Origin: an uncultured Bacteroidales bacterium
GTDB lineage: Bacteria; Bacteroidota; Bacteroidia; Bacteroidales; Muribaculaceae
Length of the DNA: 64,000 nucleotides
Direction of reading: 5' to 3'
Assembly: GCA_902768435.1 (NCBI GenBank)
Contig: CACXLJ010000013.1
Coordinates: 1-64,000 of the forward strand
The notes beneath the pieces were generated by a model. It did no database searches. It saw only the letters and a program-made list of their open reading frames with translations, and was not told the origin of the DNA. Each line of letters opens with the position of its first letter. Positions within the stretch are counted from its first letter, which is position 1. The position numbers and the translations under genes are program-made. Positions 41,728-64,000 of the stretch are shown piece after piece.

Positions 41728-41845
41728 GCGACAAGCGATCAACAGGAAAATGGCGATTATTCCCCACGAGTTCTGGCGTTCGCCAGGAAGGGCTGGATAC
41801 ATAATAATAAATCAAATGGCTCGTATTCTTTATAAATATCTAGTC

Positions 41846-41915
41846 ATAAATGACGCAAAAGTGAGCAATAATGGGCAATTTCAAAGATTTTATCCTAAAT
41901 AATGACCAATAGGCC
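41846..41915 (+). repeat. Left copy of the island-bounding inverted repeat
   Basis: 70 bp matching 57615-57684 in inverted orientation; by hand count 56 of 70 positions agree, and 41 of 45 in the core 41871-41915 (from ATGGGC through TTTCAAAGATTTTATCC to AATAGGCCC). It lies 165 bp downstream of tRNA-Leu. Confidence 0.8.
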
Positions 41916-42077: not shown

Positions 42078-43145
42078 ATGAAGTATCTTACAGTCAAAAA
42101 GGCTTTGGCTGCATGGCAGGCGATACAGCCGTTGTCGGAGAAGGATCGGGAGAGGCTCAGCCGCCGCTTCACCGTGGACTTCAACTACAACAGCAACCAC
42201 CTCGAGGGCAACACGCTGACCTACGGGCAGACTGAGATTCTGCTATTGTTCGGCAAGGTGATTGGCGAAGCCGATGTGAGAGATGTGCAGGAAATGACTG
42301 CTAGTAACGTTGGATTGAAGATGATGGCAGAAGAGGCCCGCATAAAAGAGATACCACTGACACAAAACTTTATCAGAACACTGCACAAAACTCTATTGCG
42401 AGAGGACTACACAGTCTATCGGGACCTCCCTGGGGGCGTACAGACAAGTTATGTGATACATGCAGGGCAGTATAAGACACGGCCTAATAGTGTAATCACA
42501 CGATACGGAGACCGATTTGAGTATGCCTCGCCAGAGGAGACTCCTGGACTGATGACTGACTTGGTTGACTGGTATAACTCAGCTGAAAAGAAAGGAAAAC
42601 TTTCACCAGTAGAGTTGGCAGCTCTTTTCCACTATCGCTACATACGCATTCACCCCTTCGAAGACGGCAATGGACGCATTGCCCGGCTGATGGTGAACTT
42701 CATTCTGGCTCGTCACGACTATCCGATGATTGTGGTGCGGAGCCGCCAAAAAAGTGAGTACTTGGAAGCACTACATCAAGCAGACCTCGAAGTGGGTCCC
42801 ATTCCCAGCGATGGTGCCCATGCAGAGTTGAAAGACATTAGGCCATTCCTGAAGTATTTCAATGGACTCGTGGCCAGGGAAGTGTATAATGATGTGCTGT
42901 TTGTGAGCGAGAGGGATGAGAATGTGTGGTGGTATGATGGAGAACGGATTTCATTCAGGACTCCAAACTACACAAAGATTTTGAATGCCATGCGCACAGA
43001 GCCCACACTGACCTTGGCAGACATGAAAGACGTGACCGGCATCAGCATCACCGCCATCCAAAAACTTCTTGACCATTTGATTGACAAGAAGTATGTAGAA
43101 CGAGGCGAGAAGGATGGCAGCTGGAGAGTGTTTGTGACGCAATAA
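42078..43145 (+). CDS. Fic-domain AMPylase-like protein with inhibitory motif and C-terminal winged helix
   Basis: 355 residues. The Fic motif HPFEDGNGR is intact (about H192-R200), so the catalytic His and phosphate-binding Asn/Gly/Arg are present. An N-terminal SNHLEG (S39-G44) matches the class II inhibitory motif (S/T)xxxE(G/N), suggesting autoinhibition. The last 65 residues look like a winged HTH (LTLADMKDVTGISITAIQKLLDHL). Fic proteins transfer AMP or related groups to Ser/Thr/Tyr of targets. First gene of the island, with its own palindromic operator. Confidence 0.9.
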   Translation: MKYLTVKKALAAWQAIQPLSEKDRERLSRRFTVDFNYNSNHLEGNTLTYGQTEILLLFGKVIGEADVRDVQEMTASNVGLKMMAEEARIKEIPLTQNFIRTLHKTLLREDYTVYRDLPGGVQTSYVIHAGQYKTRPNSVITRYGDRFEYASPEETPGLMTDLVDWYNSAEKKGKLSPVELAALFHYRYIRIHPFEDGNGRIARLMVNFILARHDYPMIVVRSRQKSEYLEALHQADLEVGPIPSDGAHAELKDIRPFLKYFNGLVAREVYNDVLFVSERDENVWWYDGERISFRTPNYTKILNAMRTEPTLTLADMKDVTGISITAIQKLLDHLIDKKYVERGEKDGSWRVFVTQ

Positions 43146-46190: not shown

Positions 46191-48356
46191 TCAAGTTAAT
46201 AGCGTATCGATAGCATCAAACGTTGTGTCGATAAACGTGTTGTTGCTCATGTGGGAGGTGTCTATCTTTTTGTAGTCATCAAAAAGATGGCGGTTAAATT
46301 CCAGTTCAAAAGCCAAGCGAAGGTCGTTCTCGCTGCCTTCATCGCCTTTTGCTTCTTTAGCGGTTATAGTTCGAACTCGCTTCACCTCATACACATCACG
46401 AATACCCTTGCCCTTGATATAAGGGATAAAGAAGTGAAGATCGTGAAGGGCAATCGTTGTCGGGAAATTGGAGCCTGTATAATAGAGACTTGCTGAGCCA
46501 TTATCAAACATCTCCTCATTAACCCTTTTACGATTAACGACAAGTCCGATGAGTACTCGATTAGGCACTTCGACGAAAACGCCCTTCTGAGGAATCACCT
46601 GCTCGATAATCTTTGATGATTTAGAGACGATCAATTGAGCGATATGATCTTCGAGCAGCTTACGGCTAACGTCGTCTTTAGGACGCAACGGGAAGGCCCC
46701 AATATTTACAGCCTTAATCGAATCCTCAAATTTCTTAGGTTGGCCGTTTCCTGGGAATAGGATGTAACCGCCTATCACCTCTCGCTTGAGGGCTTCGTCC
46801 TGATTGTGCTGGTAATATATAGCATCACGATATCTGTGCATTTGGTTGATGGCTCCATCAGGTGGTTCGTCCACTTCATCACTATCACGTCCTCCAATAC
46901 GATATTTCGCATCAAAAAGGTAAGTGAACTTCATGCCTTTCTGCATATCGTCTTTGGTGAGTTGAAGAACGATGTCAGGCTTCTGAGGAACAGTGGGTAC
47001 GACCAAATCCGTAATACTGATACTATCATTGGGATGGTCTGTGTGCTTGGGATTGTAAACCAGCTCGGCAAGTTCCACGTCATCTTTCTTGAATAAAATG
47101 CGAGAATGCTCACCTTTACCCAGCTCCCACGTAAACATACCGCTCATTTCCATGCGGTTCCGATGGTCAACGTCACTGTCTTTTAGTCCGAGTTGTTCCT
47201 TGACGATATGGCTGACCTCAATAAAGCACCAAATCTCATATAGCGTCGCAATGTCTTTGGACTGCAAGCGATAAATACCGTCATTCAACGAGTATGCCCT
47301 ACGTAACAAGTTCCAAGTGCGATATACTTGACTGTAGTCGGTAGCCTTTTGAAGAACGAGACTTTCCTGAGAGAGCCCTTTGAAGCGCCCAATAGTACGG
47401 AAAAATGGATGGCGTTGCAGGTGTTTTAGTACTGATACTCGCTCCTGCATTTCAGCCACCATCGTTTCAGAGATGTTCTTCAGCTGTTCGATACGCTGCT
47501 CCAGTTGGGCGTATTTGGTTGTGATCTGCCCGAGGGCATATTTCAAGAAACGGTTTTCTTGAGTATCATTGTTCTGCACCTGCTCTTCATTGCGGTACAA
47601 GTGTGCAGGTTCTTTACGATGCTCGGCAAATTCATTCTCAATAGCAGATGTAACCCGTTTGAGTTTATCGGCACGTTGGTACACTTCTATACCACGTAAA
47701 CGGCGCCTAGGCCGCTCTATGATGCTGCGGCAAGCCTTAATGAATTTATCTTGTTCTCCTTGGAAGACGCTCCACCAAATCAGATCTGGTCTATCTCCAT
47801 CGGTCTGAGGGGAAAAACCATGGAAAGTTCGCTTCATGTAATCGAGCGATAGCATTCTGTATTCTCGCTCAATATCTTCAATGATATACTTCCAGTGTTC
47901 GTGATAATTGAGCTTTGTACTCAACACCTCAAACCCGAAAGTAAACGACTTTTGGGTATCACCAATTCTATATCTAAGGTTAATCTCGCTCTTGCCAATA
48001 TCGTTGCCATAGTTCAAGAATCCGGCTAGAATGTGGCTACGAAAGCTGAAGCCTTCATTGACGTTTTGCAACATCGAACTGAACTCGGCTTGGGTCACAT
48101 TGGAGTTAAACTCTACCCATATTGGGTAATTGGCGTTGTCGAAGAAGATAGCTCTGTTTGGTTCCCCCTGAATAATCTCAATGGCCGGGTCAGTTAGATT
48201 TGAGAGTTTTACTGACTGTACGCCATCACTCCAAGAGTATATGGAGGTCAAGTTTTCCACTCCTACATTCGTGACGGCCTTGCCCCAAATGCCCTCATAT
48301 TTGGGACATTCGATGCTCATGGTGAAGTCGATATGTTTTATTCTCAGAAGATCCAT
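46191..48356 (-). CDS. McrC-like DUF2357 / PD-(D/E)XK nuclease (LlaJI R2-type)
   Basis: 721 residues. The N-terminal two-thirds match DUF2357, which includes a coiled-coil region (about 270-330). The C-terminal nuclease core shows PDIVLQL (D near residue 462) and FDAKYRI (D-A-K near 482-484), the PD-(D/E)XK active-site pattern. In McrBC and LlaJI systems such a protein cuts DNA when driven by the AAA+ GTPase partner, whose gene lies 12 bp upstream. No truncation is seen. Confidence 0.83.
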   Translation of the reverse strand: MDLLRIKHIDFTMSIECPKYEGIWGKAVTNVGVENLTSIYSWSDGVQSVKLSNLTDPAIEIIQGEPNRAIFFDNANYPIWVEFNSNVTQAEFSSMLQNVNEGFSFRSHILAGFLNYGNDIGKSEINLRYRIGDTQKSFTFGFEVLSTKLNYHEHWKYIIEDIEREYRMLSLDYMKRTFHGFSPQTDGDRPDLIWWSVFQGEQDKFIKACRSIIERPRRRLRGIEVYQRADKLKRVTSAIENEFAEHRKEPAHLYRNEEQVQNNDTQENRFLKYALGQITTKYAQLEQRIEQLKNISETMVAEMQERVSVLKHLQRHPFFRTIGRFKGLSQESLVLQKATDYSQVYRTWNLLRRAYSLNDGIYRLQSKDIATLYEIWCFIEVSHIVKEQLGLKDSDVDHRNRMEMSGMFTWELGKGEHSRILFKKDDVELAELVYNPKHTDHPNDSISITDLVVPTVPQKPDIVLQLTKDDMQKGMKFTYLFDAKYRIGGRDSDEVDEPPDGAINQMHRYRDAIYYQHNQDEALKREVIGGYILFPGNGQPKKFEDSIKAVNIGAFPLRPKDDVSRKLLEDHIAQLIVSKSSKIIEQVIPQKGVFVEVPNRVLIGLVVNRKRVNEEMFDNGSASLYYTGSNFPTTIALHDLHFFIPYIKGKGIRDVYEVKRVRTITAKEAKGDEGSENDLRLAFELEFNRHLFDDYKKIDTSHMSNNTFIDTTFDAIDTLLT

Positions 48357-48368
48357 TAATTGAAACGG

Positions 48369-50423
48369 TTAAGCCCAGAACGAAGTATAACCACTATCTA
48401 AACGGTCAATCATTTCGTCAAGTTTTGCTAATGAAATAGATTGACGTATCGTTTTACCATCTTCTGTCGTTTCGCCTTCAGCTTTAGCGACAAAAACATC
48501 TTTTTCAGATATCGACCCAAGTTGAGCCTTGATTCCCTTCTTTAGACCCTCAAGCAATGATTTTTTAACTTTGGACTCATCACCTTCGATACGTGACAGA
48601 ATTTTCATTGAGGTAATCTCATCAAGGGCACGAGCTATGACATAGTTCTGATTCAACTCTGTTCCATCATCAAGTTTGCGATAGGGCAGATTATTAATGA
48701 CATAGAGCAAGAACTCGTTTCGTGTTCGATAGGCGACTTTAAATGGAGTGCCCTCAAGCTCGTCATTAACCTTTTGCAGATAGTTTATCACCTGATCACA
48801 AACCTCTTTATTCTGTTCATAAACATCCACCCCTTCAACAGCAGTGCCGATTAAATCGTCTTTACCAAGCTTGCCAATTACTTCATATTTAGAACTAAGA
48901 CCACCATCAAGGTTAACTTCATTCATTTCAATAGTCATAGCTCGGTCAAGCACTTTTCTAGAGAACGAGAAGGTGGTCTCATCCATGTTAACGGTACCCA
49001 CAACGATGAGATTATTAGGAATGTACAAGCGTTTACCACCTTCTTCTGTAAGATATGACTCTCGAACTTCATCCTCAAGAAATAGCTGATCAATCAAACT
49101 TTTATACTCTTCAGTACTTGAATAATCAATGATGGGATCCGTCTTAATATTGCCGTTTTCATCAACTTTGCGTGATTCAATTACGCTAAGGTATTCGGCA
49201 AAATATTGCTCTACTGGTGCAAGGTTCATCTCATCCAAACAAAGGAAATATGGCATCGTGGGATTTTTGATGGCCTTGACCATAAATTTAAGAAATGGAC
49301 CAACAATGTAATGAATACCGTCTATTCTGCTTACATAACCAATTAACTCGCTTGAGTCATGCCAATTAGGTTTTACCTGGACCATTTCAAAGTTGCTAGG
49401 TTTTTGAGCCTTGAATTCATCACTATCAGCAAACCAACATGAACGAGCAAGCTCTCTTACTATTCGACTTTTGCCCGTACCAGAAATGCCTGCAAGCAAT
49501 AAGAAGGGTTTAGATTTAATAGCGGTGATGAATGGACGATATTTGTTATCAATATTCTCATTAACTCCCTTACTGTTTGACACATAGATTTCAGCGTCAG
49601 TTATATGATGCTTGAGAATATCCTTGCAGTCTTTTAAAGTTTCGAGAAATGAGAAGTATTGGTTTAGGACAGTATAAGCAGCGTATTTAGTGCCTTGATA
49701 TTCTCCCACAATAGCATCTAAGACTTGATCCGTTTTGCGAATTTCAGATAGTGTATTTTTAAGAAGATCAATGTCAATAAAACTGAAGATAGATACCTCT
49801 TTTTCATAATATCTAGAGAGAATATCACCCAAATCTTTTTCAAACTTGGACACATAATCAGCATGATTGCCCATATGAGAATTGGTGCGTTTCAGATATT
49901 GTATAAAACGATCTCTAACGGTATCTATTGAAACATCATCAAGTGCCAATTCTTCATCTGCGGGTTGAATCGTCGTTAATAATCGAAGCTCAACTGAATC
50001 CTCAATCTTTTCTCCAAATAGCATAATTGTATGACGCTCAACAAGAAAATGCCGCAGATTAAATCCAGGGACTCCCAAATTATTCAAATAGAACCTATTA
50101 TCATCACGTTTAAGATGCTGAACAGTATATCTGGCAGTCTTATTCTGATTAAAAAAGGAGGAAACTTCTTTATAAAGAAAATCAAAGACCTCATTACTTG
50201 ACTCAACTTTATTTTCTCGATTATAAAGAGGCAGAATATTGCTGACAACACCAATAGCCTTAATAAAATCTTCTCTATAGAGAGTAAAGTTGATTGCTCC
50301 GCTTGTATCTGAGAGATAATCAGAAATATCTCTAGATAGGTTGATGCTTGTTTCGTTCGATGTACTTTGTGTCAGCTTAAAATGAGCATCTTGTCTCTGT
50401 ACAATTTTCTTAAACGGTTCCAT
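48369..50423 (-). CDS. McrB-like AAA+ NTPase (LlaJI R1-type)
   Basis: 684 residues. The N-terminal ~300 residues are a divergent, probably DNA-recognising region. AAA+ core: Walker A GISGTGKS (about 312-319), Walker B FLCLDEMNLA (D397-E398), and the McrB-type signature GTVNMDETTFSFSRKVLDRA (Asn near 479, Asp near 481; shown in part elsewhere). McrB-like motors use GTP or ATP to translocate and activate the McrC-type nuclease encoded next. It sits 11 bp after the methyltransferase gene. Confidence 0.85.
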   Translation of the reverse strand: MEPFKKIVQRQDAHFKLTQSTSNETSINLSRDISDYLSDTSGAINFTLYREDFIKAIGVVSNILPLYNRENKVESSNEVFDFLYKEVSSFFNQNKTARYTVQHLKRDDNRFYLNNLGVPGFNLRHFLVERHTIMLFGEKIEDSVELRLLTTIQPADEELALDDVSIDTVRDRFIQYLKRTNSHMGNHADYVSKFEKDLGDILSRYYEKEVSIFSFIDIDLLKNTLSEIRKTDQVLDAIVGEYQGTKYAAYTVLNQYFSFLETLKDCKDILKHHITDAEIYVSNSKGVNENIDNKYRPFITAIKSKPFLLLAGISGTGKSRIVRELARSCWFADSDEFKAQKPSNFEMVQVKPNWHDSSELIGYVSRIDGIHYIVGPFLKFMVKAIKNPTMPYFLCLDEMNLAPVEQYFAEYLSVIESRKVDENGNIKTDPIIDYSSTEEYKSLIDQLFLEDEVRESYLTEEGGKRLYIPNNLIVVGTVNMDETTFSFSRKVLDRAMTIEMNEVNLDGGLSSKYEVIGKLGKDDLIGTAVEGVDVYEQNKEVCDQVINYLQKVNDELEGTPFKVAYRTRNEFLLYVINNLPYRKLDDGTELNQNYVIARALDEITSMKILSRIEGDESKVKKSLLEGLKKGIKAQLGSISEKDVFVAKAEGETTEDGKTIRQSISLAKLDEMIDRLDSGYTSFWA

Positions 50424-50434
50424 ATACTAAGAAG

Positions 50435-51502
50435 TTATTCAGTGATTATTCTATTTGATATTAAATAATGCAGTACAGCATATACCATATTTACGCTGAC
50501 AGCATTTCCAGCCTGTTTATACATTGCGCCGTTTGCAACTCTTGCGTTTCTTGCTTTTTCTGCAAAATCATCAGGAAAGCCTTGAAGCATAAATGCTTCT
50601 CGCGGTGTAAGCTTTCTAATGGCTATATGAGTAAGCTCCTCTTTTGTCATTTCCTCTGACGGCCTTTGTCTTCCTTCAGATTGTATGAAAAGATCACTAT
50701 AATAATTGTCTTGACAGGCTCTATGCATCTTGTGCATGGATGCAGTCAAAGGCCGAGCGATTATTTGATCAATCTCAGATTTTGATTTGAAGCCAGCACT
50801 GCCATCACTTAGAATTGTCGGTTTAATTTTTTCAGATAGGTAATACTTGGGCTCTACATTTTTCTCAAGAATTTCAATTACTGAATCATAGAAATTTAAT
50901 GAGCATCTCATCCGATTAATTCTGGCAAATGATTGCTTCACCAATTCTGATGAGAACTCAAAATTACCCAAGTCTGCAAGTCTAGCAAAAATGATAACTC
51001 TATTTCGTTTTTGAGGCAATCCGAAATCATTTGAGTTGAAGATATCCATTCTAACTTGATATCCGGCATTTTCAAGCTCAGCTAAAATCACTGCGATTGT
51101 ATTGCCGTTATCGTGATTCTTTAAGTTCTTGACATTCTCTAGAAGAACGTATCGAGGATGTCTATGATTAATCATATCCATAATCCTAAAGAACATTTGT
51201 CCTCGTTCCTCATTAAAACCATCTTGGTCCCCCATCATACTGAAAGTCTGGCACGGAAAACCACCTGAAAGCAAATCGTACTGAGGAAGATTCTCCATTG
51301 CTTCAATATCTTCTACGAAAGCAACTATATCTCCCATTGATACCTCATTGTCGGTATTATAATTAGCACAATATGTCGCCTGGGCATTCTTGTCAATCTC
51401 AGAATACGCAACAGTATGTAATGGAAATCTCAAATCACGTGAAATCAAATCCATTGCACGTCTAAACCCACCAACTCCAGCAAATAATTCCACATGGTTC
51501 AT
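50435..51502 (-). CDS. C5 cytosine DNA methyltransferase (second of the LlaJI-like pair)
   Basis: 355 residues. All catalytic motifs are intact: motif I ELFAGVGGFRRAM (about 4-16), motif IV GGFPCQTFS with catalytic Cys84, motif VI LLENVKNL, motif VIII LPQKRNR, motif X QAGNAVSV. It makes 5-methylcytosine; the target-recognition region between VIII and X is distinct from its neighbour's, so the two probably methylate different strands or sites. Its start codon overlaps the upstream methyltransferase gene by 4 bp. Confidence 0.92.
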   Translation of the reverse strand: MNHVELFAGVGGFRRAMDLISRDLRFPLHTVAYSEIDKNAQATYCANYNTDNEVSMGDIVAFVEDIEAMENLPQYDLLSGGFPCQTFSMMGDQDGFNEERGQMFFRIMDMINHRHPRYVLLENVKNLKNHDNGNTIAVILAELENAGYQVRMDIFNSNDFGLPQKRNRVIIFARLADLGNFEFSSELVKQSFARINRMRCSLNFYDSVIEILEKNVEPKYYLSEKIKPTILSDGSAGFKSKSEIDQIIARPLTASMHKMHRACQDNYYSDLFIQSEGRQRPSEEMTKEELTHIAIRKLTPREAFMLQGFPDDFAEKARNARVANGAMYKQAGNAVSVNMVYAVLHYLISNRIITE

Positions 51503-52632
51503 AGAAACTTCATAATGCCGTCTCCTATAGCTTTAGCGAGTTTGACCGGTACAGCATTCCCAACTTGAGCATACCACATGTTTTGAGCTCCTGTGATTAT
51601 ATAATCATCTGGGAATGTCTGAATTCGAGCGGCTTCTCTTGGGCTCAAGCCTCTGGCTTCCCAAGGATGGATATACATATTGCAATCAAACTTCATGTGT
51701 GAAGTGATTGTTTTGCATATCTGAGACTCATTCAATTTAAAGTACTTGTCTTTAAAGATTCCATTACGGCGTTTGTAAGGCATGATATCTGCTATTGATT
51801 CATGCAATGAGTTAGCACCTTGTGGTAATCTTCTGAAGATTTCAATGTCTCTTTCATTATTATAGCGGTTCTTATGATTGTAGAGCATGTGAATATCTCT
51901 TCCATCATTTATGAAATCGTAGAATGGATTGTGAACATATTCAAATTCAATGGCTGTGTAACCAGACTCTGCATTTTCGATATTCTTAGCTCCTTTTTCT
52001 TTTCTCGCTTCAAGATGGGGCAGCCCTTCTAGAGCATCCTTTAGCACAAATGGATCGCGTTTATTTTTGTTTATTTCCTCAAATATTCTATGAGGATTTA
52101 TGCCAACCCTATTGCCTATCATTATAAAGCGTTCTCTATTTTGTGGGACACCAAAATCCTGGGCTTTCAAAATCGCATAATCAAATTCATATTCACCCCC
52201 AAGATAGTCTGTAAAGTCTTGAATGATTTCTTGACTTCTGTTCATCATACCCTTTACATTCTCCATGAGAAAAAATTGTGGACGAACACACCTAAGGAAG
52301 ATAAGATACTGTTTGTATAATACATTCCTTGGGTCGTCAAGAATTCTATGGCGATTGGCCATTGAAAAACCTTGACATGGAGGACCGCCACAAACAAGAG
52401 TAATATCAGAAAAAAATTCTTCATATTCCTTGATATGCGCATTAAGTTCTGCAATGTCTCCTATATAATAGTGACTATCAGGTAAAGAATGGTTATACTT
52501 GTATGTATTTGCAAATTGTTCTACAATCTCATTTGCAAACCACGGAGTAAACCCTGCCTGTTCGAGTCCTAGGCTTAGCCCCCCGCAACCTGCAAACAAG
52601 TCAACCATTTTGTATATTTGTGTCTTTGTCAT
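51499..52632 (-). CDS. C5 cytosine DNA methyltransferase (first of the LlaJI-like pair)
   Basis: 377 residues. Motif I MVDLFAGCGGLSLGL (about 8-22), motif IV CGGPPCQGFS with Cys86, motif VI LMENVKGM, motif VIII VPQNRER, motif X QVGNAVPV. An insertion with a Lys/Glu-rich segment precedes the recognition region. It is cytosine-specific and full length. It follows the GHKL gene by 37 bp, the widest gap within the operon core, which may mark a module border. Confidence 0.92.
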   Translation of the reverse strand: MTKTQIYKMVDLFAGCGGLSLGLEQAGFTPWFANEIVEQFANTYKYNHSLPDSHYYIGDIAELNAHIKEYEEFFSDITLVCGGPPCQGFSMANRHRILDDPRNVLYKQYLIFLRCVRPQFFLMENVKGMMNRSQEIIQDFTDYLGGEYEFDYAILKAQDFGVPQNRERFIMIGNRVGINPHRIFEEINKNKRDPFVLKDALEGLPHLEARKEKGAKNIENAESGYTAIEFEYVHNPFYDFINDGRDIHMLYNHKNRYNNERDIEIFRRLPQGANSLHESIADIMPYKRRNGIFKDKYFKLNESQICKTITSHMKFDCNMYIHPWEARGLSPREAARIQTFPDDYIITGAQNMWYAQVGNAVPVKLAKAIGDGIMKFL

Positions 52633-52669: not shown

Positions 52670-54325
52670 TTATTTCTTCACAGCATCATCTAACCGTCGA
52701 CACAAGTGAGATAACAAACTCAGCATGTCTAAACAATCGTTTTCTGTGAATAATCCACTTTCTTTTAATTCTCTAATCTCTTCATGTGCAATAGGATTCC
52801 TTACTCCGCTCATCATTCCAGCAGACATGAACTTTTGCCCATCTTCTACATTTTCTTTGGTTGAATTTGAAAAATCAGTACCATTCTTTTTCTTATAGTT
52901 TGAAGATACTGACAAAAGAGCATTATCTTTTCCAAAGACTTTTAGCATGAGTTTTTGTCCATCCTCATTACAATTGGACTTCTCTTGAACTCTTGTTTGA
53001 TAACGCTTAATCGCTTCTTCAACAGCCCTATAAAAATCCGCATTCTTATAATCTGCGTATGAAGCATCTTTTACTACCTGGTGTAAACGGCGCCAATGGT
53101 ACTGTGCATATTCAGGGATAAGGGCATGCAATGCACCGACGACTTCACTTTGTTTGTCGCTTTCCAATTCAGAATTTTCCACTACAGAATCTACGATCTT
53201 TTCGACACCTTTCTGTATGTCTGGTGTTAGTGTAGGATACCATTGTCTAAGATCAACTTTTGTCTTCTCTGTAATCTTGCGCTGCCGCTCTGTTTTCCTC
53301 TTGGCACGCCAATTTCGCTCAACAGAAGACAATAAAAATTTCAAATTATCTCGAAGTTCTGAAGTTATTTGCAAATCCCAACTCAACGACTGACGATCAG
53401 TTGATATTATATCCTCTTCTTGCTCATCTACGAAATCCACATCTAACCATCCTGTCAAGTACGAATAAAAGTGACTGGATTCCCCAACCCCGAAAAATTC
53501 CGGGGCATTTACCATACGTCCATGAGCATATAAAGTTATTCCTCGCAATCCTGGCTTTAGCGGCTTCTCCGTTGCCAATAGTTCTCCAATAATATTCTTT
53601 TTATAAAGATAATGCTCTTTGTCCTCAATAAAAGCGGGCACATTCCATGTGAATTGAGCATCAATATTTCTATATCTTAGTGTTTTATCTATAGGAATTG
53701 GCACATTATCATTTAGTGTTATATCTGCAACAAAGTCATCATCAAAGAAATCAAAAAGGCGTGCAAGACTGCCAGCTAACCCTTCTGGATCAAAAGCAGT
53801 TTTGCGCTTAAGATTGGTTAGAATGATTGTTGTGCCTTGCTCTTGAGGATTACATGACTCTATTGTATATTGAGGCTCATAGTTTGGCGTTTTAGAATGA
53901 ATAATGTCATTCCAATTCATAGTAAAGTTAACGCATTCACCATTCTTCTTTGTAACAATTTGAATCGTATCACCAATTCCGAAAAATGCCAATTTCCCCA
54001 ATCCCTTACGTCCTGTTACTTTTCGTTTCCCATTAGGGCTAAGCCCGCTATCAGATTCTCTCCTTTTACGGCCTATTCGCAAAAAGTTCTCATTGATTTC
54101 ATCAAATGACATTCCGACTCCTTTGTCAACAACGGCAATGCTCTTCCCCTCTTCATTATCTTTAAGAATAATATGTACTTCAGGAGATTCCGCATCATAA
54201 CTATTGGCAATCAACTCTGCTATAGCATTAGGTAATTGCGAATACATCTTGACTCCCAAATGTTCTATCGTCTGGGGATCAAAACTCATTTCCAGTTTTT
54301 GATTTTTATTTTCTATATCTGCCAT
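52670..54325 (-). CDS. GHKL (MORC-like) ATPase with C-terminal Ymh/HEPN-like domain
   Basis: 551 residues. GHKL ATP-binding motifs: N-box AIAELIANSYDA (catalytic Glu37, Asn41, Asp44), G1 VVDKGVGMS (Asp67), G2 GRKGLGKLA (105-113). A transducer-like domain follows (about 200-340), with the basic run RNWRAKRKTERQRK near 337-350. The last 130 residues resemble the TIGR02391 (Ymh) family, with RNPIAHEE at 509-516; R509 and H514 fit the R-x4-6-H motif of HEPN ribonucleases. GHL ATPases next to methyltransferases are known in restriction loci; this fusion is unusual. It starts 5 bp after a C5 methyltransferase gene. Confidence 0.85.
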   Translation of the reverse strand: MADIENKNQKLEMSFDPQTIEHLGVKMYSQLPNAIAELIANSYDAESPEVHIILKDNEEGKSIAVVDKGVGMSFDEINENFLRIGRKRRESDSGLSPNGKRKVTGRKGLGKLAFFGIGDTIQIVTKKNGECVNFTMNWNDIIHSKTPNYEPQYTIESCNPQEQGTTIILTNLKRKTAFDPEGLAGSLARLFDFFDDDFVADITLNDNVPIPIDKTLRYRNIDAQFTWNVPAFIEDKEHYLYKKNIIGELLATEKPLKPGLRGITLYAHGRMVNAPEFFGVGESSHFYSYLTGWLDVDFVDEQEEDIISTDRQSLSWDLQITSELRDNLKFLLSSVERNWRAKRKTERQRKITEKTKVDLRQWYPTLTPDIQKGVEKIVDSVVENSELESDKQSEVVGALHALIPEYAQYHWRRLHQVVKDASYADYKNADFYRAVEEAIKRYQTRVQEKSNCNEDGQKLMLKVFGKDNALLSVSSNYKKKNGTDFSNSTKENVEDGQKFMSAGMMSGVRNPIAHEEIRELKESGLFTENDCLDMLSLLSHLCRRLDDAVKK

Positions 54326-54330
54326 AATTG

Positions 54331-55389
54331 TCAGGAATTAGAAATTATAGTTTCACCTAATCTTCTCGCATATTCGCATGGCACAGCATTTCCAATAATT
54401 CGAGCCGCACCAGCGATACTGTTTGTTTTAAAGACATAGTCTTTCGGGAATGTTTGTAGTGTGGCACCTTCTCGAATGGAAATGGCTCTGTCCTCATCGG
54501 GGTGGGCAAAACGTCCGTTAGAGATACTGAAAAACTTTGTCGTAATCGTTGGAGAAGGTCTGTTCCACCACATACGTCCGTAATTATCCTTGAAAATATC
54601 GTCTTTTCCGGCATAACACTGAAGTTGTAAATCTGGTTGAGATGCCCAACTAAGACGGTTACCTCCATCATGAGGGGTCAGGGCCATGCGTTTTAAACTT
54701 ACTTCACTTAATCCAGCAACCGTATGTTGAAATTCGGATTTATCTTTATGTCCGGCTTTTATCTTTGGGAAGCCGTTATTCTCTCCTAAAACATCCGCAA
54801 CTGTTATAATCTCATTGGATTTTTCAGGCAGAGAAATATCAACACCTTCTAATCGGGTTGCTATTAAAGAAAAACGGCGACGACTCTGTGGCACACCATA
54901 GTGGCTCATATCCACAATCTCTTCTGTATGCTTATACCCCAATTTCTCTATTTTCCTCAAAAACTTTGGCAAGATTGTTTCTTTATTGGTCACAATGCCA
55001 GGGACGTTCTCGACCAAAACATATCCAGGCATATAATATTCAATGAATCGGGCAAAATTCATCAACAAGCCTTTCGATAGTTCTGCTTTGGAATGGTCGG
55101 TATTGATAATGCTATAATATTGACAGGGGCTGCAACCAACCATAATCAAACGGTCGTCATTCTTTTGTACTTCAAAATTCTTTTCGAAATAGTTGCTATG
55201 AAGTCTCTTTACATCCCTACGCACAAATACACTGCCTGGATTATTGTACTCATACGTTTCTTTGGCGTTTTCGTCTAAATCCACACCAGCAATTACGTCA
55301 ATACCTGCTTGACGCAAACCGCATGTCATTCCTCCGCCTCCGCAAAAGAAATCTATGGCTTTATATTTTATCTTTGATACATCTTTCAT
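54331..55389 (-). CDS. C5 cytosine DNA methyltransferase paired with the GHKL ATPase
   Basis: 352 residues. Motif I AIDFFCGGGGMTCGL (about 11-25), motif IV VGCSPCQYYS with Cys89, motif VI LVENVPGI, motif VIII VPQSRRR, motif X IIGNAVPC. Intact and full length, and clearly different in sequence from the two other methyltransferases in the operon. Its start overlaps the TOPRIM gene by 4 bp and its stop is 5 bp before the GHKL gene, so these three are translationally coupled. Confidence 0.92.
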   Translation of the reverse strand: MKDVSKIKYKAIDFFCGGGGMTCGLRQAGIDVIAGVDLDENAKETYEYNNPGSVFVRRDVKRLHSNYFEKNFEVQKNDDRLIMVGCSPCQYYSIINTDHSKAELSKGLLMNFARFIEYYMPGYVLVENVPGIVTNKETILPKFLRKIEKLGYKHTEEIVDMSHYGVPQSRRRFSLIATRLEGVDISLPEKSNEIITVADVLGENNGFPKIKAGHKDKSEFQHTVAGLSEVSLKRMALTPHDGGNRLSWASQPDLQLQCYAGKDDIFKDNYGRMWWNRPSPTITTKFFSISNGRFAHPDEDRAISIREGATLQTFPKDYVFKTNSIAGAARIIGNAVPCEYARRLGETIISNS

Positions 55390-56021
55390 TCGTCCTTTTC
55401 AATGTTACATTTCAAGAACCCCTTCAACGGCTCTAGATACTCTGCATCCAGATTCCAGTGCTGGGTATTCTCGTAGTTGCGGTTTGCGTCTTTTATCAGT
55501 TTCTTCTGAGTCTTTGACGTGCCCAATAACGTTTCAAGATAGGCGTATATCTTGGTCTTTTTGGCGGGGATGGTCAGAGTGGGTGGAATCTTAGTGAGGA
55601 TTCGCACCTCTGCAAGTTCTCCTTCATAGGTTTGCCAGCAATCCATGACAGGCTGATTGTCGGGATTGATGATGTTTTCCAGCAAGTCTTCCAAGGCGCC
55701 TGCATCTTTGTTGTTGGGCAGTAGGAACAACTCAAACTCTACGCCAAATTCTTCCTTGATGGCAAGCAGTTCGGCACGACGTGCTTCTATGTCCTCGTCA
55801 GCATCAAAGATGACGAGGTTAATGCCTTCAAGGTCTGAGTTCTGACGCATGGCACCTATGGCGTCTTCTGACCTCAACTTCTGATAGCCACCTGTATCGC
55901 CTTCTTTCCCTGGATGGGTGATGCTGCCTTTGGGAGCTTTTTCGCCGAAGATATGGTGATAGTAATCCTCGAAGAATTTCTTGTCGGCGTCACCCTCTAC
56001 TATTATCTGAAACCTCTTCAT
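55386..56021 (-). CDS. DUF3226 TOPRIM-type nuclease-like protein
   Basis: 211 residues. TOPRIM-like pattern: conserved Glu9 in IIVEGDADKKFF and a DxD in VIFDADED (Asp73, Asp75), then FLLPNNKDAGALEDLL, typical of DUF3226. In OLD-family systems a TOPRIM nuclease works with an ABC-type ATPase; here the ATPase is the preceding gene and overlaps by one base (TAATG). Nuclease or toxin activity is inferred. Confidence 0.82.
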   Translation of the reverse strand: MKRFQIIVEGDADKKFFEDYYHHIFGEKAPKGSITHPGKEGDTGGYQKLRSEDAIGAMRQNSDLEGINLVIFDADEDIEARRAELLAIKEEFGVEFELFLLPNNKDAGALEDLLENIINPDNQPVMDCWQTYEGELAEVRILTKIPPTLTIPAKKTKIYAYLETLLGTSKTQKKLIKDANRNYENTQHWNLDAEYLEPLKGFLKCNIEKDE

Positions 56022-57097
56022 TACGCCAACCCTCTAAGTTCAACATCGTTTTCGCATGCTCCGCTCAGACCTTCGTAACTGTATTTATAGGCCTGATGTC
56101 CTTTTACAGGAGTCTTAGCGAGTGTATATAACCGCATCTCTTGCTGATACTCTGGATGTTCTTCCAGCATTTCATTCAAGCTGCTTAATGTTTCCTTGCT
56201 ATGAGTAGTAACGAACACTTGCTTGTTTGTTGTGGTTGCCAAGGAGAAGATGGCTTCCCATAACTTCTTGTAGGCAGAATAGTGCAAGCCATTTTCAATC
56301 TCGTCTATCAAAAGTATATTGTTCATGGGATTGGCAGATGCAGCCACAATATTCAGATAACGGCGAAGACCATCACCTTGCATATTGACCGCCAACAACT
56401 GATCGATTCCTTCCAGACCTACATAAGCGACATTATTCAAAATCTCCAATGTGGTGATACGACTATCAAAGTTCTTCAATCGCTCTGTTACGGTATCTTT
56501 TAGTCTGCGCTTTATCAACTCAATCAAGTCATTGGCTGGATTGCCAGCAGCCAAATCAGCAGGAAGGAGAGCCACGCTGTTCTTTTCTAAATATCCTTCT
56601 GCCAGTTTCTTGTTAGATATCAGCCCTTGCTGATTGACTGTCAAGCTACACTCGTGAGTACTCTTTTGTTTATCAGATTCAACATCAAAAAGCATCTTCA
56701 GCGTATTCAGGAAGGTCTTTGTTTCTGATGTTGGTATCTGTCCGTTTTGCAAATCCTGCTGCGACTGCCCGTCAAAGACATAAGTCAACTCTAAAGACAA
56801 GTGCCGCTTGATATTATCAAACAATTCGGAAGAAATCTCAGGCTTTACCTTTAAGTCATAATTATGAAACATATAGCCCAAGTCTGCAAAACTGCTATAG
56901 TTGCGAGACCTGATAGAATTGATAGTTTGAGGCAGGTCTGGGTTGGACATCCCCATCACCAGCAAAAGGCATTCAAGGACAGAACTTTTTCCTGAACTAT
57001 TCTGCCCCAGAAGTATATTAACACGGGAAAAGTCATCTATCTTCAGATGGTCAATACCTCTAAAGTTCTTTATTTCAATATTTTTGAATCCATCCAT
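56021..57097 (-). CDS. OLD-like AAA ATPase (AAA_15/AAA_21 type)
   Basis: 358 residues. ABC-type ATPase: Walker A LLGQNSSGKSS (G31-S39), a signature-like MQGDGLRRYL, Walker B NILLIDEIENGLH (D265-E266) and H-loop VTTHSKE. No fused TOPRIM domain; the nuclease-like part is the separate next gene, as in split OLD (PARIS-like) systems, where the ATPase senses phage proteins and releases the TOPRIM effector. The N-terminal sentence IEIKNFRGIDHL is family-typical. 30 bp after the XRE gene. Confidence 0.87.
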   Translation of the reverse strand: MDGFKNIEIKNFRGIDHLKIDDFSRVNILLGQNSSGKSSVLECLLLVMGMSNPDLPQTINSIRSRNYSSFADLGYMFHNYDLKVKPEISSELFDNIKRHLSLELTYVFDGQSQQDLQNGQIPTSETKTFLNTLKMLFDVESDKQKSTHECSLTVNQQGLISNKKLAEGYLEKNSVALLPADLAAGNPANDLIELIKRRLKDTVTERLKNFDSRITTLEILNNVAYVGLEGIDQLLAVNMQGDGLRRYLNIVAASANPMNNILLIDEIENGLHYSAYKKLWEAIFSLATTTNKQVFVTTHSKETLSSLNEMLEEHPEYQQEMRLYTLAKTPVKGHQAYKYSYEGLSGACENDVELRGLA

Positions 57098-57127: not shown

Positions 57128-57310
57128 TTACAACTCTTTGCTTTGGGTTCCTAAATCCACTAATTGTGCCATGGAGGGCTGTATCTTGTTCGTTTTCCAC
57201 CGTGAAACGGTCATGTCGGTGACACCCATCTGTTCGGCAAGCCATCGGTTGGTGATTTGCTTGTCGGCCAACACCACTCTAATTCTGTTTTGACAATCCT
57301 TCTTCGTCAT
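57128..57310 (-). CDS. Small XRE/Cro-type HTH regulator at the head of the defence operon
   Basis: 60 residues from the ATG at 57310. An upstream in-frame ATG at 57340 is rejected because it overlaps the -7 box. HTH: NRWLAEQMGVTDMTVSRWKTNK (about 19-40, shown as LAEQMGVTDMTVSRWK). Its size fits controller (C) proteins of restriction-modification systems, which delay nuclease expression until DNA is methylated. It is the first gene of the operon, so it likely regulates the whole set. Confidence 0.85.
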   Translation of the reverse strand: MTKKDCQNRIRVVLADKQITNRWLAEQMGVTDMTVSRWKTNKIQPSMAQLVDLGTQSKEL

Positions 57311-57337
57311 CAATCTTGGTTTTATTTGTTGTATGTG

Positions 57338-57345
57338 CAAATATA
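57338..57345 (-). promoter_or_regulatory. -7 box (TATATTTG) of the defence operon
   Basis: Minus-strand TATATTTG, 28 bp before the XRE start at 57310. It is the only promoter match seen for the whole 12-kb operon. A clear -33 element is missing, which would suit activator control. Confidence 0.55.
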
Positions 57346-57614: not shown

Positions 57615-57685
57615 GGTCTATTGGTCATTTTTTAGGATAAAATCTTTGAAAACGCCCATCAACACTTGTCTTTGCAGCATTTATT
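57615..57685 (-). repeat. Right copy of the island-bounding inverted repeat
   Basis: Inverted partner of 41846-41915. The core 57615-57659 matches 41 of 45 positions of 41871-41915 on the opposite strand. It lies 45 bp from the stop codon of the chromosomal MalY-like gene. Confidence 0.8.
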
Positions 57686-57729
57686 ATTAATATGATGCAA
57701 AAAATTAGCGAATGATCCCAAGTCGTGTT

Positions 57730-61237: not shown

Positions 61238-64000
61238 TTATTCTTTGGTTACAATGTTGTAAAGTTCGCCATAACTTGTGACCACATCGTACTTGATTGA
61301 GCTATCGGAGATAGATGCAAAGTGACGACGTGCGCACTCAATTTTGCCAGCCTCTGTGCCACGCAAGTTAGCGGATTTAAGCTGATGGCTTGACGCGCCT
61401 TTGGTTTCAGCAATGAAGTAAACGTGTTTGACGCTTCCCTCACGGAATACTACAGCCCAGTCGGGGTTGTAGTGACCCATCGGCGTGTTGATGTAGAAGC
61501 CATGAGGAAGTTTGGTGTAAACCACAACCTCGTCATGTGCTTCAAGGTTCTCGGCAAAGGGTTTCTCTGTGCCGACACTATCAACCACCACTAAATCATA
61601 CAATGATTTTGCCGATTCAATAGCGTTGATACCGAGCTTGCCACGAATGGTATTCTCGGTGAAGATGTCGCTACTGTACGTCTCGGACAATTTCTTGTAC
61701 TCGATGTGCTTGATTACCGCAATTGCTTTTGCCTCGTTGATAATGTTACCGACCTTGATAATAAATTCTTCGGGGTTCAACCTGAACTGCAAGAATTTCT
61801 CTGGTTTGATACCAGTAAGGATGTCGGCAATCACCTTACGGGTTAAGCCAGTGCTTTCCACCAACTTGCCGAGCAAGTCATATTTCACGTTGTTGCCAAC
61901 GGCTTCGCTGACGCGGATTGTGCGGACTTTACCTGCTGTCATTGACGCTCCAGCTTGCAGTTCTTCTTTGTCGCGAATGTTCTCCAACGAGCCAGAGCCG
62001 ACAACGATACGGATTTCCGTAACGTTCAGATACTTGTCTATGCCGTCAATGGCATTCTTGACAAGTTCGTCGGTCTCAAAGTCAACAGTATAGAAAGAGC
62101 GGGTATTGATACGTTTCCACAATTCCTGGAACTCTTTCTTGTTGAATTTCTCCTCGTCGAACTTCGCTTCTCTTGTATGGCGAGCGTTCTGCGGTTTGAG
62201 CAGGTCGGGATTGAATACTTTATCAAGCACGGCCACGATGCTTGCCTTTGCGTCGCCATAGTCGCCCAAGTCAAGCGTATCGTTCTTTTTATCCTCGAAG
62301 TATTTCTCTGTTAGTTTGCCTTTTCGCACATAGCCATTGGCTACAAGCTCTTCATGGACTTCAACGGCTTGATTAGTTGAAAGCGTGCGCTCCTCGCCAG
62401 TTGTGGCAAAAACAATGGTTTTGCCGGTGAACAAATTGGCGGTGACAATAATCGGGCGAGTGGAGATTGCGCTGGCGAGTTCGTCTTGCAGTGCTTTTGA
62501 GAACTGTTCGTAACTCTCACTGGCTATGACTGTGAGAATGTTGGTGTCGAAAACGCCAGTTGCGCCAAGCAACTCCTCGTCTTGTCGCTCGCCGTTTCGG
62601 TCGACGCACAAGCGCATACCACGTCCAACTTCCTGTCGCTTCTTCGTCTCGTTGTCGCTGTTTTTCAGCGTGCAGATTTGGAAAACGTTTGGGTTATCCC
62701 ACCCCTCTTTGAGAGCGGAGTGCGAAAAGATAAAGCGTGTTGGCTCATCGAAACTCAATAGTCGCTCCTTATCTTTCATGATAAGGTTGTAGGCATCTAC
62801 ATCGCTACTGTCGGTCGAGCCACGTTCAATCTTCGGGTTGACCATGTGGCCTTTCCTGTCACGCGAGAAGTAGCCCTGATGAATACGGCTGATGTCACGG
62901 TCGATTTTGGCGAGATATTGCAGGTACTGCTCGTCGCCAAAAGTGGGCTGCATTTCGTGCATGACATTGACGTATTCTTCCTCGAACATTTCGGCATACT
63001 TGCCGTTTCGTGTCGTGCCGCCGCTCTCATAGATGCGGTAGTTTTCCACGTGGTCGATGAAGAACAGCGAAAGCACCTTGATGCCTTTGCCGAACAAAGC
63101 GCGTTCACGTTCAAGATGTGTGCGGATAGTTTCTTTGATTTGTATGCGGCGAATGTAGTCTTCGTTGACCGAGCCAATCATTTCACCCTCGTAGATGGTC
63201 AAGCCGTTAAGCAGAGTGATGCAGCCTTTCACGCCGTTGATGCTCGTGACGATGTAGCGGTCTTTATACTCGGTTAGGCCGTCGCTGTTCTGGTAAAGGT
63301 CGTACCGTTCACTCACCACTTTCGACACTTTCTTCAAGCCGTTTGCGCCTCTCACGTCGTGAGAGATGCGTGCCTGAGGCTGTCCTTTGGTGATGATGAT
63401 TTTTTCAAGATAGACGAAGCCGTTGGTGGCTGTGGTGCCCACCTGTTTCACACCGAGTACTTCAATTTTCTTCACCAGCCGACGGTTGAGCGCGTCGATA
63501 GCGTCAAGTCGGAATACTTGATTGTATAAATCGTCCCTGCGGTGCGTGGCACTGTAAAGCAAAGAGAACAGCGGTTTGAACTCTTTGAGTTTCGTTCGCG
63601 TGGCGTTGTTGCGGTCAACGCCCAGCACGCTCTGTGGCTCGTCGATAATCAGGATGGGGTTGGTGGCCGCCATCACGTCGATAGGCTTGCGGAAACCGAA
63701 GTCTTCGAGGCGCGACGTGAAACGCCGGGCATCTGCACCGCGGGCGTTGAACGCCTGCGTGTTGATGACCATTACCTGTAGGCTTGGGTCGAGCGCAAAC
63801 GAGTTGATGGGCGCAAGGTTCTTGCTGTTATACACGAAATAGACGAGCCGCTTGCCGTATTGTTCGGCGAAGTGGTCTTGCATGATGTCGAGGCTTTTCA
63901 GCACGCCCTCACGAATGGCGATGCTCGGCACGACAATGACAAACTTACTCCAGCCATAGAGTTTGTTCAACTCGTACATGGTTTTGATGTAAGTGTATGT
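61238..64000 (-). CDS. Type III restriction enzyme Res subunit, cut by the window edge
   Basis: At least 920 residues; the frame is open to the right edge, so the start and the Walker A motif lie outside. SF2 helicase motifs: LIIDEPQS (DEAD-box equivalent), SHSALKEGWDNPNV and the motif VI EVGRGMRL. The C-terminal nuclease core is PDWAVVF...FIAETKG, the PD-x-ExK site of EcoP1I/EcoP15I-type Res. It works with a Mod methyltransferase, presumably encoded beyond the edge, to cut DNA with two inverted unmethylated sites. Only the visible 3' part is annotated. Confidence 0.9.
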   Translation of the reverse strand, partial: TYTYIKTMYELNKLYGWSKFVIVVPSIAIREGVLKSLDIMQDHFAEQYGKRLVYFVYNSKNLAPINSFALDPSLQVMVINTQAFNARGADARRFTSRLEDFGFRKPIDVMAATNPILIIDEPQSVLGVDRNNATRTKLKEFKPLFSLLYSATHRRDDLYNQVFRLDAIDALNRRLVKKIEVLGVKQVGTTATNGFVYLEKIIITKGQPQARISHDVRGANGLKKVSKVVSERYDLYQNSDGLTEYKDRYIVTSINGVKGCITLLNGLTIYEGEMIGSVNEDYIRRIQIKETIRTHLERERALFGKGIKVLSLFFIDHVENYRIYESGGTTRNGKYAEMFEEEYVNVMHEMQPTFGDEQYLQYLAKIDRDISRIHQGYFSRDRKGHMVNPKIERGSTDSSDVDAYNLIMKDKERLLSFDEPTRFIFSHSALKEGWDNPNVFQICTLKNSDNETKKRQEVGRGMRLCVDRNGERQDEELLGATGVFDTNILTVIASESYEQFSKALQDELASAISTRPIIVTANLFTGKTIVFATTGEERTLSTNQAVEVHEELVANGYVRKGKLTEKYFEDKKNDTLDLGDYGDAKASIVAVLDKVFNPDLLKPQNARHTREAKFDEEKFNKKEFQELWKRINTRSFYTVDFETDELVKNAIDGIDKYLNVTEIRIVVGSGSLENIRDKEELQAGASMTAGKVRTIRVSEAVGNNVKYDLLGKLVESTGLTRKVIADILTGIKPEKFLQFRLNPEEFIIKVGNIINEAKAIAVIKHIEYKKLSETYSSDIFTENTIRGKLGINAIESAKSLYDLVVVDSVGTEKPFAENLEAHDEVVVYTKLPHGFYINTPMGHYNPDWAVVFREGSVKHVYFIAETKGASSHQLKSANLRGTEAGKIECARRHFASISDSSIKYDVVTSYGELYNIVTKE

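Follow-up and report, generated by a model that had tools for sequence, protein, structure and literature searches.

LlaJI (Lactococcus pNP40; GACGC/GCGTC) is encoded in the order M-M-R1-R2 and combines two C5 methyltransferases with an McrB-like R1, which has a unique N-terminal half, and an McrC-like nuclease, R2. LlaJI restricts unmethylated DNA in vivo, and its R1 is the specificity subunit, binding the LlaJI site by itself (PMC1459862). PcaRCI of Pectobacterium consists of a methyltransferase, an McrB-like protein and a DUF2357 nuclease subunit, and restricts DNA lacking its own CCNGG methylation (PMC8989522). According to the sections of PMC11090510 cited here, the DUF2357 arm of McrC stimulates the McrB GTPase and its PD-(D/E)XK domain cuts; the same sections defer a clade of methyltransferase-associated NxD McrBC systems to a later publication, and our search of the literature since 2024 for this clade returned only the CoCoNuTs papers.

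The locus described here, in a Muribaculaceae genome, shares with LlaJI the gene order, the two C5 methyltransferases, the McrB-like R1 with its own N-terminal half and the McrC-like R2. By description, not by sequence, it is also like PcaRCI, although PcaRCI has one Dcm-like methyltransferase (CCNGG) and the present system has two. With the NxD clade it has in common the NxD motif, the DUF2357 partner and the adjoining methyltransferases, but the cited sections of PMC11090510 describe no cassette of methyltransferases plus N-terminal domain. We interpret the four genes as a modification-blocked restriction-modification system and a natural hybrid, in which a specificity cassette of the type found on LlaJI chassis is joined to an NxD-McrB/DUF2357 motor and nuclease, and assign this interpretation a probability of about 0.8.

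The four-gene core and its genomic setting

Within the window (the whole 64,000-nucleotide stretch analysed), the core lies on the minus strand. Methyltransferase A (377 aa, 51499..52632; Pfam DNA_methylase, 229 bits) overlaps methyltransferase B (355 aa, 50435..51502; 252 bits) by 4 nt, and gaps of 11-12 nt separate B from R1 (684 aa, 48369-50423) and R1 from R2 (721 aa, 46191-48356). R1 is McrB-like: its AAA_5 match is weak and below the Pfam cut-off; a PDB search matched it to E. coli McrB (E 4e-5), and PADLOC to PDC-M26A (132 bits). R2 is an McrC with DUF2357 (139 bits) and a PD-(D/E)XK nuclease domain (PDDEXK_7, 117 bits). Read directly from the sequence, the PCQ and ENV motifs of both methyltransferases are intact, as are GISGTGKS, FLCLDEMN and NMDE in R1, which carries the NxD variant of the McrB signature (VNMDE); the nuclease motif of R2 (PD461...D482-A-K484) is invariant among its relatives. 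The description given by the sequence-only reading, of two overlapping C5 methyltransferases followed by McrB-like AAA+ and McrC-like PD-(D/E)XK proteins, is thus confirmed in coordinates, domains and motifs, and comparison of genes and domains bears out its assertion that composition and order are those of pNP40 LlaJI. AlphaFold models were uninformative, with a pLDDT of 34 for the R1 N-terminal domain and 39 for R2, and a Foldseek search with the R2 model gave no match at E 0.001.

These genes close a tight nine-gene minus-strand run in the order HTH (57128-57340), AAA_15 ATPase (56021-57097), DUF3226 (55386-56021), third C5 methyltransferase (M3; 54331..55389; DNA_methylase, 172 bits), GHKL ATPase (52670..54325), methyltransferase A, methyltransferase B, R1 and R2. 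M3 and its GHKL partner, which lie upstream of the core and were absent from the sequence-only account, invite the alternative that all nine genes are one composite defence in which this pair also controls R1 and R2, since gaps are -4 to +37 nt throughout and the sole methyltransferase beside R1/R2 in one related locus (L019) is an 81% relative of M3, there accompanied by a paraMORC-like kinase (PMC8011034). However, M3 and GHKL are paired without R1/R2 in L049 (68%/66%) and, as a broken pair, in Neisseria gonorrhoeae (L046), and GHKL proteins on plasmids adjoin other C5 methyltransferases; M3 and GHKL form a module separate from MA-MB-R1-R2, and we regard a composite defence as improbable. 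The GHKL protein itself (MORC-like; HATPase_c_3 with a Hypoth_Ymh C-terminus) is related to BbrUII/HgiDII, mainly through its N-terminal part, but is no member of that family (228 bits against NF050001, cut-off 550). The AAA_15 and DUF3226 genes (55386-57097) are possibly a separate defence pair, the DUF3226 protein having weak matches to PADLOC PDC-M38B and AbiLii.

The stretch from ~42 to 58 kb looks like an acquired island because its GC content is 36-43%, compared with 50-60% across most of the window. A 75-nt element occurs in inverted orientation at 41841-41915 and 57615-57689 (79% alike), and its only copies in the genome are at these two island ends; similar repeats upstream of the HTH gene may be HTH operators. 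Direct repeats at the island ends gave no convincing attachment site, and promoter and terminator scans gave signal little above that of shuffled sequence. A Fic gene (42078-43145) lies near the island. The window also encodes a large RE_endonuc-domain protein that reaches the window edge (61238-63979) and is probably a type III restriction subunit.

Relatives of the specificity parts and of the motor

The closest relatives found for methyltransferases A and B are, respectively, the first (66.7%) and second (54.3%) methyltransferases of Treponema saccharophilum pTS1 (NZ_AP025289.1), and in the methyltransferase tree A is sister to pTS1 A (100/99) and B groups with pTS1 B (99/96). In pTS1 the two methyltransferases lie side by side, and after them come an AAA protein and an R2 whose match to RE_LlaJI (PF09563, 146 bits) identifies a LlaJI-chassis system; we know of no characterisation of it. 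Residues 1-136 of the window R1 (50016..50423), the putative site-recognition part, align with residues 1-144 of the pTS1 R1 at 31% identity, and comparison of the N-terminal domains only gives E 1.5e-14; matches of this domain overall are at 29-31% identity. A profile of the domain matched nothing in the PDB, and relatives of methyltransferase A at 41-45% (Pedobacter, L034 and L035) have no detectable N-domain match. Both methyltransferases (67%, 54%) and the R1 N-domain (31%) are therefore common to the two systems, whereas pTS1 has an NxxD motor and a RE_LlaJI nuclease.

The motor tells a different story. The R1 motor tree splits NxD from NxxD McrB types (100/99) and places the window and LlaJI on opposite sides: E. 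coli McrB, LlaJI, pTS1, Pedobacter and L035 are on the NxxD side, and the window, L014-L024, Caballeronia, Mycobacteroides, Thiospirochaeta and L034 on the NxD side, with some branches long and Mycobacteroides placed by the tree and not by reading its motif. The earlier description of the system as LlaJI-like accordingly holds for composition and order but not for the R1 motor, which is off the LlaJI lineage, nor for R2, which is DUF2357/PDDEXK_7 without a RE_LlaJI match. The homology search against LlaJI components that the sequence-only reading had proposed points the same way: identity of A and B to M1 and M2 of LlaJI is only 26-31%, R2 has no blastp match to R2.LlaJI at E 0.01, and the R1 N-domain is unrelated to that of LlaJI by blastp. 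The best reading is that the system is related to LlaJI in its specificity parts only. GACGC was considered as its site and rejected, as methyltransferases and N-domain are without close similarity to those of LlaJI.

The DUF2357 domain had also been taken to mark a Bacteroidales variant. Its presence in R2 is secure, but it is no Bacteroidales marker, because DUF2357 is the usual N-terminal domain of McrC in the cited sections of PMC11090510 and because the combination of methyltransferase and DUF2357 occurs in Caballeronia and Mycobacteroides.

A constant chassis with exchanged parts

A search at E 1e-20 detected relatives of R1/R2 in just 10 of 393 Bacteroidales genomes, in three cases through the R2 C-terminus alone. 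Four named metagenome assemblies also contained relatives, in a scan that used one query protein and returned four loci; scans of viral contigs with R2, its C-terminal module and the N-domain of R1 found no relatives. Compared with Bacteroidales loci L014-L020, the R1 motor (residues 291-684; 48369..49553) is about 43-82% identical per segment, whereas residues 1-290, comprising the N-terminal domain and a variable linker or helical part (residues 137-290; 49554..50015), are 3-31% identical, with a sharp boundary at about residue 291. In R2, per-segment identity to the same loci is about 38-100% over residues 1-590 (46587..48356), which take in an N-terminal segment, DUF2357 and the PDDEXK_7 nuclease, and the C-terminal module (residues 591-721; 46191..46586) is exchanged in L014, L015, L016 and L018 (about 20%) but kept in L017, L019 and L020 (53-65%). 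From these segment identities, motor and nuclease are a constant chassis bearing two exchanged parts, the N-domain of R1 and the C-terminal module of R2. Modules of the R2 type (YYTGxxFPxT...PYxKGKGIRD) also terminate three methyltransferases elsewhere in the Bacteroidales, two of them C5 enzymes and one a putative N6A enzyme (L025:6111-8234, L026:8491-10236 and L027:9645-11297).

The methyltransferase complement varies by locus: two C5 enzymes in L021, L023 and L034, one in L014, L015, L016 and L018, an enzyme assigned tentatively by its motif to the N6A type in L022, and a C5 enzyme with a kinase and response regulator in L019; none was seen near the R1/R2 of L017 or L024, and the L020 neighbourhood is cut by a contig end. 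L019 (6274-17190) runs C5 methyltransferase (81% to M3), HEF_HK kinase, Response_reg_2, R1 with MrcB_N, Fic and R2, a two-component arrangement of a kind described previously (PMC8011034), in which a methyl-reader MrcB_N stands beside a C5 methyltransferase in apparent self-conflict. Both L017 (8853-9935) and L019 (8618-9763) have a Fic gene between R1 and R2.

The exchange has happened more than once. All five C5 methyltransferases found in a search of the window genome are at the window locus or at a second hybrid (L021; G000:C2:5701-12800), in which relatives of LlaJI M1 and M2 (47% and 53%) and an N-domain that resembles that of LlaJI R1 but stands alone are combined with the chassis of the window system; its methyltransferases are predicted to mark GACGC/GCGTC, the LlaJI site. 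Similarly, the motors and nucleases of L034 and L035 differ, yet the two loci have in common both methyltransferases, the R1 N-domain (E 3e-34) and a small protein. Across 14 loci the R1 N-domain travels with the methyltransferases and not with the motor: all four pairs of loci with related N-domains have related methyltransferases (permutation P = 6e-5), whereas related motors are seen in just one of these pairs. Several loci were gathered by methyltransferase or R2 similarity, so that the methyltransferase side of this comparison was selected and the N-domain result was not. A wider proposal, which we advance tentatively and hold to be possible but less than even, is that two methyltransferases and an R1 N-domain make up a general, horizontally exchangeable specificity cassette fitting at least two different McrB/McrC-type chassis, in a manner resembling the exchange of specificity subunits among type I systems, and that a second exchangeable plug at the R2 end, a module also present in C5 and N6A methyltransferases, couples modification to restriction.

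Mode of action

In the favoured modification-blocked reading, methyltransferases A and B would introduce 5-methylcytosine at the site that the system recognises, each acting on one strand in the case of an asymmetric site. The R1 N-domain would recognise the same site when unmethylated and the AAA+ part of R1 would form an McrB-type NTP-driven motor, which the DUF2357 arm of R2 would stimulate, and the PD-(D/E)XK domain of R2 would cut; unmethylated DNA would thus be restricted by NTP-driven cutting.

An alternative interpretation is that the locus encodes a type IV (modification-dependent) McrBC-like enzyme next to methyltransferase genes by chance. McrBC systems are classically type IV, and the same chassis carries the modified-base reader MrcB_N in L017, where no methyltransferase was seen nearby, and in L019; the latter chassis, with both a C5 methyltransferase and MrcB_N, means that a methyltransferase alone is no proof of a type II mode. 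We nevertheless consider type IV action very improbable because the window R1 had no MrcB_N/DUF3578 match at E 0.1 in a Pfam scan of the same kind as that which detects MrcB_N in L017 and L019, the methyltransferase pair and the R1 N-domain are co-inherited across chassis, and the four genes form a tight run. The preference of the sequence-only reading for modification-blocked over type IV action is therefore favoured, and the precedents of LlaJI and PcaRCI, together with the contrast between the window R1 and that of L017, make it the best reading.

The arrangement of the site is a separate matter. The site might instead be a palindrome, or there might be two palindromic sites, with methyltransferases that do not act one per strand: two C5 methyltransferases serve one palindromic site in BsuMI, and A and B, with only 27% identity, belong to different subfamilies and separate clades, which leaves room for two unrelated sites. 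BsuMI also has an R1-like subunit (PMC1459862). We consider this arrangement unlikely, if less so than type IV action, because LlaJI, likewise with two methyltransferases, has an asymmetric site (PMC1459862) and because Treponema and Pedobacter also have the two methyltransferases as a pair. By analogy it is plausible, as the sequence-only reading implied, that A and B each modify one strand of an asymmetric site.

Considered together, these sequence comparisons by themselves suggest a route by which McrBC machines turn into restriction-modification systems, in which reader domain and protecting methyltransferases move as a unit and can be carried by different motors. The site-specificity of unstudied McrBC-like systems would become predictable in this way.
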